59,888 bases of DNA, taken from a virus. Positions 3,185-59,619 of the stretch are shown here, in pieces. The translations under genes and the position numbers were made by a program. The stretch lies in the IMG/VR virus record IMGVR_UViG_3300032797_000052, positions 1-59,888 of that record. One strand, 5' to 3'. The first letter of the stretch is position 1. Each line of letters starts with the position of its first letter. The notes under the pieces were generated by a model, which searched no databases, was not told where the DNA came from, and saw only the letters and a list, made by a program, of their open reading frames with translations.

Positions 3185-3317
3185 TTATCTCCTCGTTGAA
3201 TATAAGAATATAAAAAGGACCAAAACAAATTCTTGTCCAATATTCGTGTTCACTTATGGACCATTTCCATCCTAACCATACTCCAAACAAAATTCTTCTC
3301 ATTTTATTTCCTATAGA

Positions 3318-3390
3318 GTGGGGTAGGGATTTGCACCCATTTCCGCTGTAGGAGCCTCATAGAGGACTATAACGCCTGTTACGCTCCCAC
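3318..3390 (-). other. tRNA-like element, degenerate
   Basis: The only sizeable gap in the leftward operon (3185-3395) contains a 73-nt stretch that looks like a tRNA read on the minus strand. GTGGG at its 5' end pairs with CCCAC at its 3' end, GGG-TGCAAAT-CCC has the form of a T arm with the same T loop as the tRNA-Leu at 58443, and TAAC-AGGC-GTTA could be a short D arm. The central CCTC-TAT-GAGG hairpin does not give a normal 7-base anticodon loop and two acceptor pairs are missing. It may be a decayed tRNA or a tRNA-shaped regulator upstream of the helicase. Confidence 0.3.
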
Positions 3391-3395
3391 CCATT

Positions 3396-8482: not shown

Positions 8483-8503
8483 ACAACCAAAAGGAGGCCG
8501 ACG

Positions 8504-8929
8504 ATGACTGAGATGTTACTGTTGAGCAAACGTATCTTCTCCCTGATTGCGGAGTATAACGTCAACCCTCCGCCGCCGTTCTTCGTGGCGCACTCTGCTT
8601 GTCGGGCGCAGGCGTCGCGCTATCACGACGCGGCGATGGCGATTGTCCTGCCCATTGAGGACATGGAGAGGTGCATCGAGAACCTGGGGGACATATTGGA
8701 GACCTACGCTTACCGCTACGAAAAGATGGAAGATACCAAGGACGGCTACAAGGCGCTGTACGCAGATGCCCTCGCCCGCATCGAGGCGCTGGAGAAGGAT
8801 TATCACGAACTCATCTATGCCGTCGCCACAAAGTATGAGGGAGAGACAAGGCACCAAACAGCACTCCGCTACATCACAGAACGCGAGATGGGTGGCCTGA
8901 CTGCCGCCCTCGCAAAGGAGAAGCCATGA
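8504..8929 (+). CDS. Hypothetical protein, GC-rich foreign gene
   Basis: 141 residues from ATG at 8504, fixed by AAGGAGG six bases upstream; the frame open from 8465 begins inside the promoter. The protein is helical in character with an acidic, coiled-coil-like middle (YKALYADALARIEALEKDYH at about 83-102). Codons are strongly G/C-ending, quite unlike the AT-rich neighbours, which points to recent transfer. It is the first gene under the rightward promoter. Function unknown. Confidence 0.75.
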   Translation: MTEMLLLSKRIFSLIAEYNVNPPPPFFVAHSACRAQASRYHDAAMAIVLPIEDMERCIENLGDILETYAYRYEKMEDTKDGYKALYADALARIEALEKDYHELIYAVATKYEGETRHQTALRYITEREMGGLTAALAKEKP

Positions 8930-9027
8930 CTGAGACGGCGGTCGCCGTAATATTCTTTGTACTCGCCACTATCTTGATGATTGCGATGTTCATTGGATCA
9001 GACTGCGGTGGGGGGATGTGTCCATGA
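8926..9027 (+). CDS. 33-aa membrane micropeptide
   Basis: Starts with ATGA overlap on the previous stop and has the same GC-rich codon use. After MTETA, a span of about 17 hydrophobic residues (VAVIFFVLATILMIAMFIG) is followed by SDCGGGMCP. Coupled translation and a clear membrane segment support a real gene that came in with its partner. It may anchor or modulate something at the membrane; the function cannot be read. Confidence 0.55.
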   Translation: MTETAVAVIFFVLATILMIAMFIGSDCGGGMCP

Positions 9028-52738: not shown

Positions 52739-53455
52739 CTAGTATCCTCTCAAATTCGCCTCCTTCTTTCCCTTGACAACCTGGTACTGCCCACTCGCAA
52801 CAGCCTGGTTCACGATTGACTCCAGCTTCGCGACCTTCGAGATTACGGTATCGCGATTGTAGGAAACATCCCCTACATGTGCTGATTCCACTTTCCAGCC
52901 CGACCGTTCTAGCGTAGTGAGCGCAGCACCCTTAATGTTTCCCTCGTGTGGCATACTTTGACGCGCCTTGATTACTCCCAAGACACAGTATGCCGCGACC
53001 TCGAGGAGTGCGACTAGGGGAGGCGTGTGTACAAACAATCCGTTAATCCACGCGTCAAGCATGCCCGCTTGTCCGTTTTTGCAGAAGGCGCGGTGATTCT
53101 TTGCATCGCCTACAGCTTCATAGCATGGCCAGTAGTCCTCTAGCTTGACTACTGCCTTCTTGCCTTCGGGATTCTTGAAGGTGACTTCCCCCGTGACCCT
53201 GCTATTCGAGGCGAATTGTGCAACGGCATTTTGCACAAAGCGGTATGCTTTGACTCCTCTCCCCGTATCGCCCATACAATCCTTGGCAAGATTAGTATAG
53301 GCAAGCGTTTGCTTCTGTGACATTGCGGGGAGCGTGACTCCCTCTCCGATCACCTGGTAGTGCGTGGAGAGGGAAACATTCGCGCTTGCCAGCTTACTCT
53401 CAGCCTTGGGCGATGCTTCCTTGATTCGTTTTTGTAGCGCAACGCGTGTAGCCAT
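52739..53455 (-). CDS. Hypothetical GC-rich gene product, likely acquired
   Basis: 238 residues from ATG at 53455 (AAGGAG seven bases upstream; a longer GTG frame to 53539 lacks one). The sequence (MATRVALQKRIKEASPKAES) has no motif I recognise; a hydrophobic helix lies near residue 150 (LVALLEVAAYCVLGVIK). Codons are GC-ending and clearly different from the AT-rich neighbours, so it is a probable recent import. It is read opposite to the flanking genes, carries its own terminator, and is preceded by a long structured leader. Confidence 0.7.
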   Translation of the reverse strand: MATRVALQKRIKEASPKAESKLASANVSLSTHYQVIGEGVTLPAMSQKQTLAYTNLAKDCMGDTGRGVKAYRFVQNAVAQFASNSRVTGEVTFKNPEGKKAVVKLEDYWPCYEAVGDAKNHRAFCKNGQAGMLDAWINGLFVHTPPLVALLEVAAYCVLGVIKARQSMPHEGNIKGAALTTLERSGWKVESAHVGDVSYNRDTVISKVAKLESIVNQAVASGQYQVVKGKKEANLRGY

Positions 53456-53543
53456 TACAAGACTCCTTATGAAACGCAAAACGTAGCATATAGGCGCGAG
53501 CGTATGCCCACAATAGAGAATCCTCCTTCCTGCCCGCACGCGA

Positions 53544-53674
53544 TAGACTCACTTGACCTAACCCAAGCCAGCGGAGGGAATTGCCACACGGAGGACTATA
53601 TGCGGGCTGATTCCGCCGGAGCGCCGCGTACGGATTCCACAACGCTAGCCTGGGAGGGCTGGAGGGTGAGTCTA
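53544..53674 (-). promoter_or_regulatory. Structured GC-rich leader upstream of the 238-aa gene
   Basis: In the leftward transcript TAGACTCAC (53674-53666) pairs with GTGAGTCTA (53552-53544), enclosing about 113 GC-rich nt with further short inverted segments. The leader ends 88 bases before the start codon. A TATAAT-like -10 (GGGTTATAAT) lies about 20 bp upstream, though no good -35 is visible. It might be a riboswitch-like element or an RNA gene of its own. Confidence 0.45.
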
Positions 53675-54112
53675 CTGTAAAGGTACAAGAGCATTATAAC
53701 CCGGATTCTAGTATTCCAGCTTTACATAATAAAATTTAGGACTCTGTTCTATTTGTAGAACAAAACCTTAAATAATAGGGTTTCGCATAGCCAACTTCGG
53801 GTTTAGTACTCAGTACTCTGTACTCAAGGAGGCTATAGTAACAGGAACTTAAAACTAATTCGGAATCTGAGTAAGCGTAGAGTAAACTAAAAAAGGCGAG
53901 TACTTAGTACTCATTACTAATTTGGATAGAAAACATAACAGTTGCCCCCAAGTAATGCGGATTCTATCCAGTTGAGTACTCAGTATATAGTAATTAGTAC
54001 TCATTGTCGAGTAAACAAATCAGACTAATCTGGCCTAATTACTATATGCTACATACTCAATAGAAAGTAGAATAATAGAAAATTTATTAGTTTATTGAGT
54101 ATTTTAGGTTCT

Positions 54113-54145
54113 GAGGTAACGGAATTTGAATAGAAATCGGGTTTT
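54113..54145 (+). repeat. 33-nt conserved block, copy 1
   Basis: GAGGTAACGGAA, seven variable bases, AGAAATCGG, then a T-rich end. The second copy is at 59587-59619 in the same orientation with identical spacing. GAGGTAACGG also occurs in the structured element at 58034-58151. Confidence 0.65.
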
Positions 54146-54334
54146 CTGAGTACTCAATACTGATTGACTGGCGATTGAGTAAATTGTTGTCTTTTGAGTA
54201 GATAAATAGTGTGTTTGTACTGTACAAATTATATTTTTGAGGTTAAAGTGCTATTATACTGTATTGTGAGTAATACAGCCTTATAACAGCATCTAATAGG
54301 ATAATCAACAAATACTAAGATTTCTTTCAGTCAA

Positions 54335-54388
54335 AATCTTTAAGGTGCGATTCGGAGGGTCATGGTACAATCAAGGTGGCAGCCGCAC
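54335..54388 (+). promoter_or_regulatory. Leader RNA motif, copy 1
   Basis: AATCTTTAAGGTGCG is identical over 15 nt to a sequence in the leader at 59143-59199 (other strand). After it come CGGA, TGG-ACAAT, AAGG and TGG in the same order in both. GTGCG (54345-54349) pairs with CGCAC (54384-54388). The element ends 38 bases before the start of the 171-residue gene, so it is probably a conserved 5' leader. Confidence 0.65.
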
Positions 54389-54426
54389 GTCTAGACAAAG
54401 CTGAGTAATAGAAAAGGAGTACTGAA

Positions 54427-54942
54427 ATGGCTACAAATAAGAAAATCTCCTTTACACTGGAAAGTTCACCAAATAAGAATTATCGAGTAGGAAAATCTCT
54501 CCGATTTACATGGGCAGACTTGTTTTTAGCATTAGATACAGTAAAACCTCTTTGTTCGAGTAAAATCCTACGGGCGGTTATTCAATCTTTGCTGAATAGT
54601 GGCAAAGATTTTACTCATCAATATTTGTGGAAAGTAGTAGAAATGCTATACAAAGAGAAACTGTTAAAAACAAGCGATACAATGAAAGTATGCGTTTGGA
54701 TTATAGCAGCTTATGGGTACATGCACGGCTGTTCTACTGATGAATATGGTATAGGAACTTTCCCTCATCCATCGGGGCCGAGTAGAATCAAGAAAGTGAG
54801 GTTCACTGACTGGCGTGATAATCTAGTCTGTCCACTTTGTAGTAGAATCTACCATCCTAGAAAGGGCAGAGTAAATAAGGAGGTGATTGTAAAAGAATTT
54901 GGAGTATGGTTAGAAAATCATCTTACACGCGAACCACACTAG
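54427..54942 (+). CDS. Hypothetical early-type protein
   Basis: 171 residues with AAGGAG seven bases before ATG. An N-terminal beta-like start (KKISFTLESSPNKNYRVGKS), a helical middle and a CxxC (VCPLCSRIYHPRKG) near 138 that could hold zinc. It is preceded by the conserved leader and followed by the PC4-like gene. Function unknown. Confidence 0.65.
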   Translation: MATNKKISFTLESSPNKNYRVGKSLRFTWADLFLALDTVKPLCSSKILRAVIQSLLNSGKDFTHQYLWKVVEMLYKEKLLKTSDTMKVCVWIIAAYGYMHGCSTDEYGIGTFPHPSGPSRIKKVRFTDWRDNLVCPLCSRIYHPRKGRVNKEVIVKEFGVWLENHLTREPH

Positions 54943-54959
54943 ACAAGGAGAATAGTAAA

Positions 54960-55214
54960 ATGCCAAAGAATCCAATTACCTCAAATGGAATACTTACTCC
55001 GCCAACAGAGATTAGTTGTGTATCTGAATCACGTGACTTCTTGAAAGTAACCAAATCCTTCTATAATGGAAAGGAGCGAATAGATATTCGTTTCTGGTAC
55101 GTTGCAGCCGACGATGAAACTCTACTTCCTGGTAAAAGAGGAATCTCACTATCTCCTGAATCTGCTTTAGATGTGGCAAAGGCAATTCAGACAATCTTAG
55201 GGAGGAAAAAGTAA
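54960..55214 (+). CDS. PC4-like ssDNA-binding protein
   Basis: 84 residues from ATG at 54960 (AAGGAG nine bases upstream). SFYNGKERIDIRFWYVAADD, then LLPGKRGISLSPESALDV and AIQTIL reproduce the PC4/p15 core (beta strands with DIRxWY, then PGKKGISL and a helix). PC4 proteins bind ssDNA and act in transcription and repair in eukaryotes; bacterial and phage relatives exist. It may open or protect promoter or replication DNA. A terminator follows. Confidence 0.75.
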   Translation: MPKNPITSNGILTPPTEISCVSESRDFLKVTKSFYNGKERIDIRFWYVAADDETLLPGKRGISLSPESALDVAKAIQTILGRKK

Positions 55215-55229
55215 AAATAGTATAATACT

Positions 55230-55257
55230 AGAGGCCTCATTAGAGGCCTCTTTTTTT
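55230..55257 (+). terminator. Terminator after PC4-like gene
   Basis: AGAGGCCT (55230-55237) pairs with AGGCCTCT (55244-55251) over a 6-nt loop, followed by T7. Confidence 0.85.
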
Positions 55258-55299
55258 ATTTAAAGAAACTATCAATCTACTCAAAAGGAGAGTAAAACA

Positions 55300-55788
55300 A
55301 TGCTATCAAATAGAGAGGCACAGAATTTAGATAATTGGATCACTGGTCATCATGGAGAGGATCAATTTAGAGGATTATCTGATGTATTCTGTGCTGATTG
55401 TCCTCATGAAAGCGAGTGTGGTAGAGATGCCTATTGTAATAGTGAAGAAGAGAAAAAGGTATACTTGAGAAGTATTCAAGAAGTTGATTTTAGTGACGAT
55501 AAGTTTCAAAAAGAACTTTCTGAGGAAGTTAGGAAACTAGGTAAATATATTTATGAATGTCCTACACACGGCAGATTCTTTTTTGACAAACAAGGAGAAG
55601 AATTAGGTTGTGATTATTGTGGAATGATTCTTAGTGAACTTATTTGTTTTTGTGAGGATTGTGATACTAGAACCTCTGTTAAACCTATTGTCCTTTATTT
55701 TCCTAGATGTATAAATTGTGGAAAAGAAGTAAAAGTCTATAAAGAAGAGGAGATTGTTAGTTTACCATGCGACCCACATCCAGAATAA
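55300..55788 (+). CDS. Multi-zinc-site protein
   Basis: 162 residues. CADCPHESECGRDAYC near 31-46, then YECPTHG, CDYCGM, CFCEDC and CINCGKEV, about 14 cysteines in all. It is likely a multi-zinc adaptor. The upstream leader carries TACTC and GAGTA close to the AAGGAGAG site. Function unknown. Confidence 0.65.
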   Translation: MLSNREAQNLDNWITGHHGEDQFRGLSDVFCADCPHESECGRDAYCNSEEEKKVYLRSIQEVDFSDDKFQKELSEEVRKLGKYIYECPTHGRFFFDKQGEELGCDYCGMILSELICFCEDCDTRTSVKPIVLYFPRCINCGKEVKVYKEEEIVSLPCDPHPE

Positions 55789-56039
55789 AGCCATTACTTA
55801 AAAAGATAGAGGCTATTTGGATAAAACATCCTGATTTAAGATTGCTACAAATACTCCTAAATCTAACTGAAGATGATGTAGCATACTATATGGAGGATGA
55901 TGAACTAAGCAGACGATTAGATGAATTGTATAATAATATAAAGATGATCCCTGCTGATAAAGTAGTTTTGAGGAGAGCAGAGAAAAGTCTTAATCGCCCT
56001 GATTCAGTAAAGAAAAACAAGGATTATATATCACTGTGA
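55767..56039 (+). CDS. Conserved phage protein, HPDLR motif
   Basis: 90 residues. IEAIWIKHPDLRLLQILLNL near 14-33 and YMEDDELSRRLDEL near 41-54 match a small family seen in many phages, where the motif is IWxxHPDLRxxQIL followed by an acidic DDEL. No function known. Overlaps the previous gene by 22 bp in another frame. Confidence 0.7.
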   Translation: MRPTSRIKPLLKKIEAIWIKHPDLRLLQILLNLTEDDVAYYMEDDELSRRLDELYNNIKMIPADKVVLRRAEKSLNRPDSVKKNKDYISL

Positions 56040-56048
56040 AAGGATAAA

Positions 56049-56270
56049 ATGATTAGCAAAAACTTAATTAAAATAATTTTAGACTCTTTAGTGAAAGATA
56101 TAGTATTAATCACAGAAAACGGTATGTGTTTTAGTGATTACTTATTTTATATCCCCTGTAAGAATTCTTATTGTGTATATGATACTTACTTTAAAATTGA
56201 GGATGTTAGACTAATCGAAATAGGTGTTGAAAGGAGAGCTTGTATAATGCTCAAGGATAGAAGAATGTGA
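56049..56270 (+). CDS. Hypothetical small protein
   Basis: 73 residues, mixed beta and helix (DSLVKDIVLITENGMCFSDY), rich in aromatic residues and cysteines without a clear zinc pattern. AAAGGA precedes ATG. No family recognised. Confidence 0.55.
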   Translation: MISKNLIKIILDSLVKDIVLITENGMCFSDYLFYIPCKNSYCVYDTYFKIEDVRLIEIGVERRACIMLKDRRM

Positions 56271-56521
56271 ACATTCACTTTAAATGCCCTGTTTGTCATA
56301 AAAGAGATAAGAATAAAGTATATTACGATCCTCTCTATGAACTTGGTGATGTTGATTATCATAAATGCCCTAATTGCGGCTCTATGATAAATATCCAAGA
56401 ATATATGAAACTTGATATTTGGGATAAAGTATTGTTAGGTTTTTTTGTGTTATATTTAGTAATAGGTTGTTGTTATCTTATGTACCTGGCTACTCAGCAT
56501 ATTAATATTGTGATACATTAA
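56267..56521 (+). CDS. Zinc ribbon plus membrane anchor protein
   Basis: 84 residues from GTG at 56267 overlapping the previous stop. FKCPVCHKRDKNK and YHKCPNCGSMI give a zinc ribbon in the first 40 residues, and VLLGFFVLYLVIGCCYLMYL near 55-74 is a transmembrane helix. It would display a zinc domain on the cytoplasmic side of the membrane. Ends by TAATG overlap with the next micropeptide. Confidence 0.6.
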   Translation: MNIHFKCPVCHKRDKNKVYYDPLYELGDVDYHKCPNCGSMINIQEYMKLDIWDKVLLGFFVLYLVIGCCYLMYLATQHINIVIH

Positions 56522-56625
56522 TGATAGAAAATATATTTAGAATAGTTCAGATATTTCCTCTAATTGTTTTAATTGCTGCAATAATTATGCTCATTACTCA
56601 AATCAGAATGTGGAGGATAAAATGA
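56521..56625 (+). CDS. 34-aa membrane micropeptide
   Basis: TAATG overlap with the previous stop and ATGA overlap with the next start, so translation coupling is likely. MIENIFRIVQIFPLIVLIAA begins the product and the span runs to about residue 26, with a basic tail. Role unknown; perhaps a partner of the zinc-ribbon membrane protein. Confidence 0.55.
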   Translation: MIENIFRIVQIFPLIVLIAAIIMLITQIRMWRIK

Positions 56626-57032
56626 AATATTATAGTAGTTGGTTTTTGATTAGATATTACCACATTAAATATCGAATCAAGAGTCGATTTGCTAGTTTTC
56701 TTTTGAAAATAGCTTCTATTCTGCATAATATAGCATATATTATAGGCAGGATAGAGAACTCTATACTAAAACTTGGTAGAAAGTTTATGGATAAATCTAG
56801 TGAAATATCAATTAATGCCTTTGATATGTCTAATAGAGAATATGATGAGTTTATTAAGAAAATGGATTTAGATGTAAATAAGCATAAAATACTAGAAGAT
56901 ACAATAGAAGACTTAGAAGATATTTTAGACATAGTAGATGCAAATAAAACATTAGATGAATTATTACATCTACCGCCTACAATAGATAAAGATGAATCTC
57001 CTTTAACAATGGGTAACTGCCGTATAACCTAA
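56622..57032 (+). CDS. Hypothetical protein with acidic C-terminus
   Basis: 136 residues from ATG at 56622 (GGAGG five bases upstream). Basic amphipathic N-terminal half (YYSSWFLIRYYHIKYRIK) that could lie on the membrane, and acidic C-terminal half with an EDLEDILD run. No family recognised. Followed by a strong terminator. Confidence 0.6.
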   Translation: MKYYSSWFLIRYYHIKYRIKSRFASFLLKIASILHNIAYIIGRIENSILKLGRKFMDKSSEISINAFDMSNREYDEFIKKMDLDVNKHKILEDTIEDLEDILDIVDANKTLDELLHLPPTIDKDESPLTMGNCRIT

Positions 57033-57043
57033 CAAAACTACAA

Positions 57044-57074
57044 GCAGAGAGGCCAAAAACCTCTCTGCTTTTTC
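57044..57074 (+). terminator. Terminator after 136-aa gene
   Basis: GCAGAGAGG (57044-57052) pairs perfectly with CCTCTCTGC (57060-57068) over a 7-nt loop, followed by TTTTTC. Confidence 0.9.
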
Positions 57075-57089
57075 TATTTAATCTATCAG

Positions 57090-57184
57090 TACTCAGATTT
57101 GGGTACTCAGATGATGAGTAGGCCAAGAGTAGAGAAAAAACTTGAGTACCGAGCAGCAGTTTGAGTACTCAGTAATTAATACTC
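57090..57184. repeat. GAGTA/TACTC motif array, block 2
   Basis: About eight GAGTA or TACTC copies in 95 bp without a gene, ending in TTGAGTACTCAGTAATTA, which is nearly the same as 53972-53985 and its downstream sequence (ACTCATTGT and ACAAAC also shared). It lies between two converging terminators. Confidence 0.75.
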
Positions 57185-57197
57185 ATTGTAGACAAAC

Positions 57198-57232
57198 AAA
57201 AAAATTAGGAGAGGAGGATTATCCTCCTCTCC
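57198..57232 (-). terminator. Terminator for leftward gene at 57263
   Basis: GGAGAGGAGGA (57208-57218) pairs perfectly with TCCTCCTCTCC (57222-57232) over 3 nt; A-rich 57198-57204 gives the U tract when read leftward. Confidence 0.85.
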
Positions 57233-57262
57233 TCTTGCCGTGACTAAATACAACGGCAAGTA

Positions 57263-57847
57263 TTACAATGCAACACTGACTTCTGCCTCAGTAATTTTAC
57301 TATTGCGAGCCTTGGGTTCATTTGCTTGTCGAGGATAACGCTTGAATGATTCTCTAGCAGCATTTGTCTTAATGCCACACATTGTAATCAAATCCTTAAC
57401 ATTGAATATCATCATGCCACCGCGTGCAGCATAATTAACTATTACATTATAATCAGCAGGTTCTTTACTAAATCCTAATTGTTTGAATTTTGACGCAACT
57501 TCATTCACCCAAGCAGCAAATCCTAATTGTCTAGCACCACGCGCTGTACCACTACCACCGACAATTGCATTGAAAAGGAATTCTGCTTGATTAGGATTTA
57601 ATCCATTAATGAACTGAGATTCAGCATAGATTAAAAGTGGATTACCCTTACCGGCCACTTCTACTGAAATCTCATTAATCTGACCTTTTTCAACACTTGT
57701 GGCAATAGGTAATGTACTGCCAAAAGCTTTTAGACTAGGAAGAGTCAGTAAAGTAACTTTCTTTGTATTAGAAGTAGGCTTACTAATAGGTTTCTGAGGA
57801 ACTTTACTATTAGCTATTCTATTGTGCAGTTCCTTTTTACCAGTCAC
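57263..57847 (-). CDS. Hypothetical protein
   Basis: 194 residues from GTG at 57847, favoured by GAGG eight bases upstream; an alternative GTG at 57868 adds seven residues but overlaps the previous stop and lacks a site. A Lys/Pro-rich N-terminal tail (about 30 residues) is followed by an alpha/beta domain with VSVEVAGKGNPLLIYAES and a helical GTARGARQLGFAAWVNEVAS. No family recognised. It is the last gene of a leftward unit with the 46-residue gene. Confidence 0.65.
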   Translation of the reverse strand: MTGKKELHNRIANSKVPQKPISKPTSNTKKVTLLTLPSLKAFGSTLPIATSVEKGQINEISVEVAGKGNPLLIYAESQFINGLNPNQAEFLFNAIVGGSGTARGARQLGFAAWVNEVASKFKQLGFSKEPADYNVIVNYAARGGMMIFNVKDLITMCGIKTNAARESFKRYPRQANEPKARNSKITEAEVSVAL

Positions 57848-57860
57848 TTTATTTTCCTCG

Positions 57861-58001
57861 TTACTCACATACTTGCTTTAAGACTTTAACAGGAATTCTA
57901 ATCTTATCCGGGTTTCTAATAATTCTATCTTTACGCTTAGTTATCACTTTAACAGATTCATTACTAATATGGAACCTAATTCTTATATCATATGTTCGCA
58001 T
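57861..58001 (-). CDS. Small basic protein (46 aa)
   Basis: ATG at 58001 is preceded by AAGGAG six bases upstream. The product begins MRTYDIRIRFHISNESVKVI and ends LKQVCE; it is rich in Arg, Lys and Ile in beta-like alternation. It lies just downstream of the structured element at 58034-58151 and before the 194-residue gene, so it may be the controlled first gene of that unit. Confidence 0.6.
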   Translation of the reverse strand: MRTYDIRIRFHISNESVKVITKRKDRIIRNPDKIRIPVKVLKQVCE

Positions 58002-58033
58002 TGTAGGCTCCTTGACTATGCTATTAAAATGAA

Positions 58034-58151
58034 AAATGCTACTCAGATAAGAGTAGTAGAGGGTTTAAGAGGTAACGGCGAGACCTCTCATATTATAATG
58101 GCCGTTTCGATAATGATAAAAGTCTCTACTACTCATATCCGAGTAGCATTT
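58034..58151. ncRNA. Long stem with pseudoknotted hairpin, candidate structured RNA
   Basis: AAATGCTACTC (58034-58044) pairs with GAGTAGCATTT (58141-58151), GATA with TATC, and GAGTAGTAGAG (58051-58061) with CTCTACTACTC (58124-58134): 26 of 28 positions pair. Inside, AGAGGT/ACCTCT (58068-58073, 58083-58088) closes a 9-nt loop whose AACGGC (58074-58079) is exactly complementary to GCCGTT (58101-58106), which allows a pseudoknot. The fold works on either strand; being upstream of a leftward gene favours the minus strand, as a leader or a processed RNA. Confidence 0.65.
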
Positions 58152-58163
58152 CATTTATTTTAG

Positions 58164-58235
58164 TACGCCTACGAGGAATTGAACCTCGATCAATAGATTA
58201 AAAGTCTACTGCACTATCCTTTGTGCTATAGGCGC
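58164..58235 (-). tRNA. tRNA-Lys (TTT)
   Basis: Acceptor GCGCCTA/TAGGCGT with one G-U, D stem GCAC/GTGC, anticodon stem GTAGA/TCTAT with loop CTTTTAA, T arm GAGG-TTCAATT-CCTC and flanking pair. CCA is not encoded, so it must be added by the host enzyme. First-processed end of a three-tRNA leftward cluster. Confidence 0.93.
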
Positions 58236-58246
58236 ATGATTCTGAG

Positions 58247-58319
58247 TGGACTAGGGTAGACTCGAACTACCAGCCGACCGCTTATAAGACGGTTGCACGT
58301 ACCATCGTGCTGCTAGTCC
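58247..58319 (-). tRNA. tRNA-Ile (TAT)
   Basis: Acceptor GGACTAG/CTAGTCC with discriminator A; anticodon stem ACCGT/GCGGT with loop CTTATAA, so anticodon TAT for AUA codons; T arm GTAG-TTCGAGT-CTAC. Bacteria normally read AUA with a lysidine-modified CAT anticodon; a TAT isoacceptor supplies it without that enzyme. CCA not encoded. It lies 11 bp from tRNA-Lys. Confidence 0.9.
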
Positions 58320-58442
58320 AAAGATGCTGTAGTTTATTGGCTTTTATCCTACAGCGTATCCTGCCTGTAACTACTAACAGGTTGTCTTTTGGTGCCCACC
58401 TATTAGGTGCTCACCGCAGAGTAGTTTTAAGCCACAGGATAG
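58320..58442 (-). other. tRNA spacer with three hairpins
   Basis: Between the Ile and Leu tRNAs lie 123 nt with three stems read on the minus strand: GGTG-AG-CACCT/AGGTG-GG-CACC, CCTGT/ACAGG closing 8 nt, and GCTGTAG/CTACAGC. ATCCTGT and GCAGGAT could close the first two like an acceptor stem. The middle lacks a normal D arm and anticodon loop, so it is not called a tRNA. It may be a processing spacer or a decayed tRNA. Confidence 0.45.
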
Positions 58443-58526
58443 TCCCACCACCGAGATTTGCACTCGGACGCCATTACTGGCTGTGGATTTTAAGTCCACT
58501 ATGTCTGCTAGTTTCATCATGGTGGG
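58443..58526 (-). tRNA. tRNA-Leu (TAA)
   Basis: Acceptor CCCACCA/TGGTGGG with discriminator A; anticodon stem GTGGA/TCCAC with loop CTTAAAA (TAA, for UUA codons); long variable arm GCCA-GTAA-TGGC typical of Leu; T arm CCGAG-TGCAAAT-CTCGG. CCA not encoded. UUA and AUA codons are frequent in this AT-rich genome, which fits the isoacceptors carried. Confidence 0.92.
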
Positions 58527-58534
58527 AGTAGTGG

Positions 58535-58540
58535 ATTATA
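58535..58540 (-). promoter_or_regulatory. Probable -10 element for tRNA cluster
   Basis: TATAAT on the minus strand, 8 bp before tRNA-Leu. At -35 there is no TTGACA; instead CTGAGTA, a copy of the GAGTA motif, covers that position. Confidence 0.5.
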
Positions 58541-58617
58541 CTGTATAGATGCGAATACTCAGGCGGATACTCACTGGCGAGTACTCCGAACCACTTTACA
58601 TCGTACTCTCAGTATAA

Positions 58618-58682
58618 CCCACTGTTCTGAGTATAAATGGAAGTTTCTCTTACTTCAGTACATTTATACTCAGAACAGTGGG
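58618..58682. repeat. Perfect 22-bp inverted repeat
   Basis: Positions 58618-58639 are the exact reverse complement of 58661-58682, with a 21-nt loop. Each arm contains a GAGTA or TACTC copy. It lies between the leftward gene at 58714 and the tRNA cluster. No U tract follows either way, so it is not a standard terminator. It may be a regulator-binding site or an RNase III-cut hairpin. Confidence 0.7.
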
Positions 58683-58713
58683 GGAGAGGGCGAACCCGAT
58701 AGACTAGACTAGT

Positions 58714-59097
58714 CTAGGATACTGTGGGAACGGGTAGAAGAATACTGATCTGTTTAACGGATTCAACATCCGTTATAACAGGCAATTCTACCACGTTCTC
58801 CACTATCTTTTCGGGCTGCATCAAAAGGGCGAGAGCCATTTGCCTCAGATCACCCTGATGCTGGTATCCGCGTAGATTTGTCTTTACTGGTACTATATTC
58901 CCATCATACGGGAGGAGGATAATCCAACGATCATCCTCAGTACCCTTCTCCCATCCAGTATTCAAGAACATGAGGGGAATATGGCGAAGTCCCTTACACA
59001 TCGCCCGAATTTCTGTACCAGATTTTCCGTATCTACTCGGACGTTGAGGCTCACCGGCTGAACCAGATGTATCAGGCTTCCCTGTTTTAGGGGTCAT
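58714..59097 (-). CDS. Hypothetical protein
   Basis: 127 residues with AAGGAG nine bases before ATG. A basic, Ser/Gly/Pro-rich N-terminus (TPKTGKPDTSGSAGEP) and then an alpha/beta domain (DDRWIILLPYDGNIVPVK, LRGYQHQGDLRQMALALL). Base composition is somewhat richer in G and C than its AT-rich surroundings. Its leader shares a motif with the unlinked gene at 54427. Function unknown. Confidence 0.65.
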   Translation of the reverse strand: MTPKTGKPDTSGSAGEPQRPSRYGKSGTEIRAMCKGLRHIPLMFLNTGWEKGTEDDRWIILLPYDGNIVPVKTNLRGYQHQGDLRQMALALLMQPEKIVENVVELPVITDVESVKQISILLPVPTVS

Positions 59098-59142
59098 GGA
59101 GTATTACTCCTTTTTGGGTACTATGTACCAGCCTGCCCATCA

Positions 59143-59199
59143 GGCGCGCCCTCTCCAGCCTTATTGTCCCACAGATTCCGAAAACGCACCTTAAAGATT
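59143..59199 (-). promoter_or_regulatory. Leader RNA motif, copy 2
   Basis: Read leftward, AATCTTTAAGGTGCG is followed by CGGA, TGGGACAAT, AAGG and TGG as in copy 1 (54335-54388). GGTGCG pairs with CGCGCC; the position that is U-A in copy 1 is U-G here, so pairing is kept with a changed base. It lies 46 bases before the 127-residue gene. Confidence 0.65.
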
Positions 59200-59237
59200 C
59201 CGAATGAAAATAATTTTATTATTTGATGGAATTTAGG

Positions 59238-59358
59238 TACTCAAGTGTTGAGTAAGCGGAGAGTAAAAGAGAAATCTTGAGTAGACAAAGAGTAAAATTG
59301 AAGAATTTAGTAGTTAAAACTTTTGAGTACTCAGTAAAAAGTAAAGGAATTTGGAGTA
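59238..59358. repeat. GAGTA/TACTC motif array, block 3
   Basis: About eight copies in 121 bp without a gene, including one TTTGAGTACTCAGTA palindrome (from 59321). The rest of 59200-59429 is plain AT-rich DNA with no gene that I can support. Confidence 0.7.
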
Positions 59359-59586: not shown

Positions 59587-59619
59587 GAGGTAACGGAAAA
59601 TTTTTAGAAATCGGAAATT
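59587..59619 (+). repeat. 33-nt conserved block, copy 2
   Basis: Shares GAGGTAACGGAA and AGAAATCGG with the block at 54113-54145, with the same 7-nt spacing between them. Confidence 0.65.

Follow-up and report, generated by a model that had tools for sequence, protein, structure and literature searches.

The intergenic DNA near the right end of a virus genome, IMG/VR record IMGVR_UViG_3300032797_000052, carries dense arrays of the short motif GAGTA and its complement TACTC, which are probably cooperative binding sites for a phage-encoded transcription regulator of the promoters of an early region. The window referred to throughout is the entire record, 59,888 bases in length, in which a terminal repeat was looked for and not found. 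A first-pass annotation of this DNA had counted about 50 copies of the motif by hand in the gaps between genes, and had proposed that they were the site of a phage-specific regulator or replication protein and not a tandem repeat. The observation is confirmed, and the regulator reading is supported by two related phages in which the position of the arrays is conserved while the motif drifts, and, in one of them, by three promoters that incorporate the sites at a constant distance from the -10 element.

GAGTA half-sites in the window

Densities in coding and intergenic DNA were taken from a gene map made by hand and split into left and right portions at position 53451. To the right of this point (region 53.5-59.9 kb), GAGTA/TACTC occurs at 21.2 per kb of intergenic DNA (54 copies in 2,544 nt), as compared to 4.3 per kb in intergenic DNA to the left (11 copies in 2,583 nt), and to coding densities of 2.4 per kb on the left and 3.1 per kb on the right. 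For the 6-mers TGAGTA/TACTCA/GAGTAC/GTACTC the bias is 57 copies right versus 3 left, the two lengths of intergenic DNA being almost the same. When 1,433 nt of selected array gaps were shuffled 300 times with preservation of dinucleotides, 45 observed copies of GAGTA stood against 5.1 in the shuffled sequences (maximum 12) and against the 3.5 that the first 52.5 kb would predict; observed and shuffled values were 31 versus 1.3 for TGAGTA and 22 versus 0.9 for GAGTAC. The density is matched neither by shuffled sequence nor by coding DNA, the two comparisons that the first-pass annotation had proposed, and a recount agreed with its hand counts, giving 20 copies in 53807-54421, 8 in 57090-57184, 4 in an element at 58034, 7-8 in 58526-58671, and 8 in 59238-59358.

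The unit of the arrays is the half-site (T)GAGTA in every orientation. A T precedes GAGTA in 33 of 49 aligned flanks, with little else conserved, and half-sites are found on both strands in every cluster. Palindromes do exist, but the earlier emphasis on them, that the motif is often TGAGTACTCA, was overstated, as this is a minority form: the full palindrome TGAGTACTCA is present four times, GAGTACTC five times, and TTGAGTACTCAGTA three times. Neighboring half-sites are helically phased in the window, with a preferred spacing of 11 bp, or one turn of the helix; 8 such pairs are present versus 2.0 when positions are randomized within clusters (P <= 0.0005), in the forms GAGTA-N6-GAGTA and TACTC-N6-GAGTA.

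The first of the arrays, C1 (53807-54272), consists of 18 half-sites in both orientations upstream of a gene for a 171-amino acid (aa) protein, among them a palindrome at 53973, another at 54147, and a trio with 7-bp spacing (53807/53814/53821). Array C2 (57090-57184) has 8 half-sites and is enclosed by two convergent terminators, one on each side, at 57042-57070 on the plus strand and 57233-57207 on the minus strand. The 7 half-sites of C3 (58556-58671) lie upstream of a tRNA cluster and run into the tRNA promoter, a minus-strand promoter with its -10 at 58535-58540 and, as noticed in the first-pass annotation, a TACTC (58556-58560) over the -35 position. Array C4 (59238-59358), upstream of a 127-aa gene, has 8 half-sites that include 11-bp direct pairs at 59250/59261 and 59279/59290 and a palindrome at 59324. 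The element at 58034 is a long inverted repeat (58034-58151, minus strand) with 33-nt arms that are 88% complementary, each arm carrying one TACTC-N6-GAGTA pair. Its loop holds a promoter-like TTATCA-N16-TATAAT that faces the genes for a 48-aa and a 201-aa protein, and as RNA it is predicted to form a hairpin with a z-score of -8.9.

Arrays in two related phages

Two relatives were reached via the large terminase subunit (TerL) and tail structural proteins. The first, G005 (38,703 bp, TerL 79%), ends in approximately 1.4 kb of largely non-coding DNA past a homolog of the 266-aa protein that is encoded at the edge of the array region in the window. This terminal array has 19 copies of AGTAC, versus 3.6 in shuffled sequence and 2.2 expected from the structural genes of the same phage, and the form of the motif (GTACTTAGTA, TACTAAGTA) indicates that it is related to that of the window yet drifted. 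The second relative, G006 (96,729 bp, TerL 61% identical), is circular or terminally redundant, because its first 100 bases match the last 100 at 99 of 100 positions, the remaining one being an N. Intergenic DNA at 83.7-92 kb of G006 has GAGTA at 13.5 per kb versus 1.8 elsewhere, and AGTAC at 9.5 per kb versus 2.2, with 26 GAGTA in three gaps as compared to 3.9 in shuffled sequence. These gaps surround homologs of the 171-, 201-, and 127-aa genes.

Structural proteins alone led to relatives. No match was found in single-protein scans of IMG/VR with the 171-, 127-, and 201-aa proteins, in scans of deposited phages with these three and the 266-aa protein, or in genome-contig scans. The closest deposited phage, GX15bay (TerL 31%), was too distant for comparison. 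The exact 14-mer TTGAGTACTCAGTA is found in at least 120 IMG/VR stretches, but none of those fetched has a comparable array, the densest with 8 sites in 600 nt versus 19 in the window; in the one that was read, L054, the sites are not within an evident gene-free gap.

Sites built into promoters

Site placement is fixed with respect to the promoter at three G006 loci and at the tRNA promoter of the window. The three G006 promoters, all on the minus strand (89678, 91392, and 9637), share the arrangement ACTCACTTTGGC-TACTC-NN-TTGNGG-TACTC-N12-TANNAT, a module of TACTC-N8-TACTC in which the two half-sites are 13 bp apart with the -35 between them, followed by N12 and the -10. The module has no further match in the G006 genome, and one of the three lies in a distant early region.

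Promoters in the array regions have good -10 elements and poor -35 elements (TTGNGG, TTAAGG). In the window, promoter-like elements precede the 171-aa gene (54337-54371, plus strand; weak -35 AAGGTGC, -10 TACAAT) and the 127-aa gene (59163-59199, minus strand; AAGGTGC, N17, GACAAT). The two resemble one another and two promoters of G006; those of the 171- and 127-aa genes can be aligned across both phages, and each of the four regions has the ribosome-binding site AAAAGGAGTA at its end. When read directly, the window and G006 sequences show consensus TTGACA-N17-TATAAT promoters, with no sites on them, at the start of the DNA polymerase operons. In G006, a cluster of AGTAC/AAGTACTTAA (stretch L137, 10920-11010; 5 AGTAC in 191 nt) separates this consensus promoter from the DNA polymerase start, and no such cluster is found at the equivalent position in the window.

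Array C2 resembles a G006 site beside the terminator of the 201-aa gene (GAGTAGGCCAAGAGTA versus GAGTAGCCAAAGTGAGTA). That site serves as the 171-aa promoter in G006, and the 171-aa operon of the window faces the opposite way, so C2 may be the remnant of a promoter region. The block headed by the 171-aa gene is on one strand in the window (54427-57032) and on the other in G006 (stretch L139, 6561-10577), with the same two arrays flanking, and the other genes of the two blocks have no recognizable homology to each other.

A proposed phage-encoded regulator and its candidates

We propose that a sequence-specific DNA-binding protein encoded by the phage would control the promoters of one regulatory domain, composed of early or host-takeover genes and tRNAs. 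Each GAGTA would be a half-site, and half-sites one turn apart (11 bp in the window, 13 bp in G006) would bind the protein cooperatively along a single face of the helix, such that from sites on, flanking, or upstream of the -35 it could cause promoters to be occluded, looped out, or activated. The same would hold for the 58034 element, where the site pairs are symmetric about the promoter-like sequence and approximately 90 bp apart. Half-sites on one face, a fixed placement relative to the -35 and -10, restriction to one region, and drift between relatives all fit a cooperative regulator of this kind. Coverage of the -35 by sites tips the balance slightly towards repression, with activation of promoters that have a weak -35 almost as likely.

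Candidates for the binder are encoded next to the arrays. The first-pass annotation had suggested a PC4-like protein (54906-55214, plus strand; PF02229, E 1.9e-11), which is unlikely, because the complete relative G006 carries the arrays and has no match to it at E<1. The other suggestion, the 171-aa protein (54427-54942, plus strand), is conserved at 39-40% in G006 and is still a candidate, as are the 201-aa protein (57263-57868, minus strand; 44-45% in G006), the 127-aa protein (58714-59097, minus strand; 31-35% in G006), and the 266-aa protein. The last is encoded by a GC-rich gene at the array edge (52739-53539, minus strand) with homologs in G005 (45%) and, weakly, in G006 (about 21%); the gene is not a recent insertion, because its position is conserved in both relatives. 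Profile comparisons gave no sign of paralogy of the 201-, 127-, or 171-aa proteins to the 266-aa protein, nor of the 201-aa to the 127-aa protein. Genes richer in G+C than the phage overall (34%) are found in the window at 8500-8930, 52739-53539, and 58714-59097.

Several observations weigh against the proposed regulator. At the 171- and 127-aa promoters of the window, the sites are upstream of and not on the -35, and C2 is enclosed by its two terminators without a clear promoter. The preferred spacings vary by phage (11, 13-15, and 19). Furthermore, the 171-, 201-, 127-, and 266-aa proteins have no recognizable family in PHROGs, Pfam, or PDB profiles, and predicted models of the 171- and 201-aa proteins (pLDDT 45 and 57) were made from two-sequence alignments and are unusable for a fold search.

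Alternative explanations

A rather unlikely alternative is that the arrays are replication sites, either iteron-like sites of an origin or fork-barrier or terminus sites, with any effects on transcription being secondary. Many short half-sites in AT-rich non-coding DNA would be consistent with this, as would the position of the arrays relative to the cumulative GC skew, the maximum of which coincides with the array start in G006 and is near the array in the window; however, skew here also tracks gene direction. All three phages have repeats of a second element, GTAACSG-N8-TAGAAATTG, in their array regions, invariably on the plus strand regardless of gene direction, a constancy that makes a role in replication or recombination possible. 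The window has two copies, each with one substitution (54116-54140 and 59590-59614, both plus strand). Exact copies are found at L130 1915 and 2484 and L139 6511 and 12754, and weaker copies at L139 6131 and 6329 and L136 10052, although the weaker ones count little, as chance alone would yield about 3.5 matches at up to 3 substitutions across the window, L139, and L130 combined. Against a replication role, the GAGTA clusters are spread over 6-8 kb, with another some 20 kb off on the G006 circle, and are located at promoters; the skew minimum, the side on which origins usually lie, is elsewhere, as are the replication genes; and no match resembling a Rep or initiator protein was found among the local proteins, which have no recognizable family.

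It is also unlikely that the arrays constitute a single nucleoprotein domain over the 6-8-kb accessory early region, and not operators of single promoters. A phage-encoded, sequence-specific silencer or bridging protein would then bind all clusters, including C2 and the site pairs of the long inverted repeats, with a recognition motif that drifted together with the arrays (GAGTA, AGTAC), next to a second, interleaved set of motifs (GGATTC, GTTCTA) beside the 266-aa gene family. This second motif, GGATTC/GATTCC (GAATCC), is interspersed at 53520-53960 and is densest upstream of the 266-aa gene; it reaches about 4 per kb in the window and, in the two relatives, 11.3 and 10.7 per kb, over a background of 0.3-1.1, and takes the form GTTCTA/TAGAAC in G006. 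It is located at 53520-53960 and 59170-59200 in the window, at L130 1260-1790, and at L139 5370-6700, upstream of the gene family of the 266-aa protein.

An improbable alternative is that GAGTA and TACTC act in RNA, as the arms of hairpins in leader or intercistronic transcripts. Hairpins with z-scores of about -9 in the window (58024-58160 and 58610-58690) and three in G006 (L139 11400-11540, 11660-11750, and 11760-11870; -8.7, -3.1, and -8.7) carry or adjoin the motif, and the segment 53960-54070 has a z-score of -5.9. However, the first stretch of C1 (53800-53930) scores -0.1 and C4 only -2.5, 11-bp direct repeats cannot pair with one another, and the promoter-locked sites of G006 are upstream of transcription. 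Palindromic half-sites would, moreover, inflate any measure of pairing. Very stable inverted repeats lie between the 201- and 127-aa genes in both the window and G006, with little shared sequence. In addition to the 58034 element, the window has a perfect 22-nt inverted repeat downstream of the 127-aa gene (58618-58682, minus strand; predicted RNA hairpin, z-score -9.1), with no U-run after the stem. These long inverted repeats might serve as RNase III substrates or small RNAs, or might form cruciforms. A search of the array gaps against Rfam 15 returned only tRNAs above the gathering score. Elsewhere in the window, 3313-3393 on the minus strand looks tRNA-like by eye; neither ARAGORN nor Rfam at the gathering score calls it, and it is possibly a degenerate tRNA.

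More doubtful still is a lysogeny repressor with operator and stoperator sites of the kind known from SPbeta or the cluster A mycobacteriophages. Numerous dispersed intergenic sites, some at promoters, would suit such a system, and drift of the motif between related phages has been reported for stoperators (PMC6550527). Yet no integrase or repressor match (PHROG, Pfam) was found among the proteins searched, which were a part of all open reading frames, the sites are confined to 53.8-59.4 kb with left intergenic DNA near background, and they occur in both orientations whereas stoperators mostly keep to one. Finally, it is very improbable that the arrays have no function and reflect amplification or mutational bias, even though the motif is short and Shine-Dalgarno sequences (AAAAGGAGTA) supply a few copies (at least two, at 54417 and 59099/59105), because this is contradicted by the comparative data, namely the position conserved in relatives and the fixed -10 distance in three promoters, as well as by z-scores of about 15-23 against dinucleotide shuffles with other intergenic DNA near background; tandem repetition and Shine-Dalgarno sequences were rejected as explanations since they cover only a few copies.

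Comparison with known systems

The stoperators of cluster A phages, bound by the L5/Bxb1 repressor (Rep), are 13-bp asymmetric sites in temperate phages, with up to about 30 per genome and mostly one orientation relative to transcription (PMC6550527, PMC9283540). The arrays share with them many copies of a short site per phage, many of them intergenic, and a motif that varies among relatives. They differ in that about 50 sites, each with a core of 5-6 bp, are crowded into 6 kb in every orientation. In Bacillus phage SPbeta, MrpR binds SPBRE, a 15-bp element at about ten promoters along the prophage (PMC10516654). SPBRE is likewise a repeated element at promoters, and was found in silico long before its protein, but it lacks the dense half-site clusters seen here. 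In the T1-like phage TLS, 21-nt intergenic repeats have been proposed to be stoperators or enhancer sites (PMC11447400). These are also intergenic repeats in a phage, but are long, direct, located upstream of start codons, and always in the direction of transcription. Half-sites approximately one turn apart near or around the -35 are a feature of OmpR/PhoB-type 11-bp direct repeats and of the TTGC-N6-TTGC sites of lambda CII. This resemblance is in site layout only, and no protein of either type was found here.

In phages whose biology is unknown, such dense arrays suggest an early regulator that has yet to be described, which would give a first handle on the control of early transcription in a phage group that has hardly any relative among approximately 50,000 deposited phage records. 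Three related genomes hold drifted versions of the arrays at one position, which makes it possible to look for the binder through co-variation and with matched probes. Repeated intergenic sites for phage regulators are already known in kind, whereas the half-site design, the density, the confinement to one region, and the lack of a fixed orientation place these arrays outside the stoperator, SPBRE, and TLS families, and both this family and its site design appear to be new.

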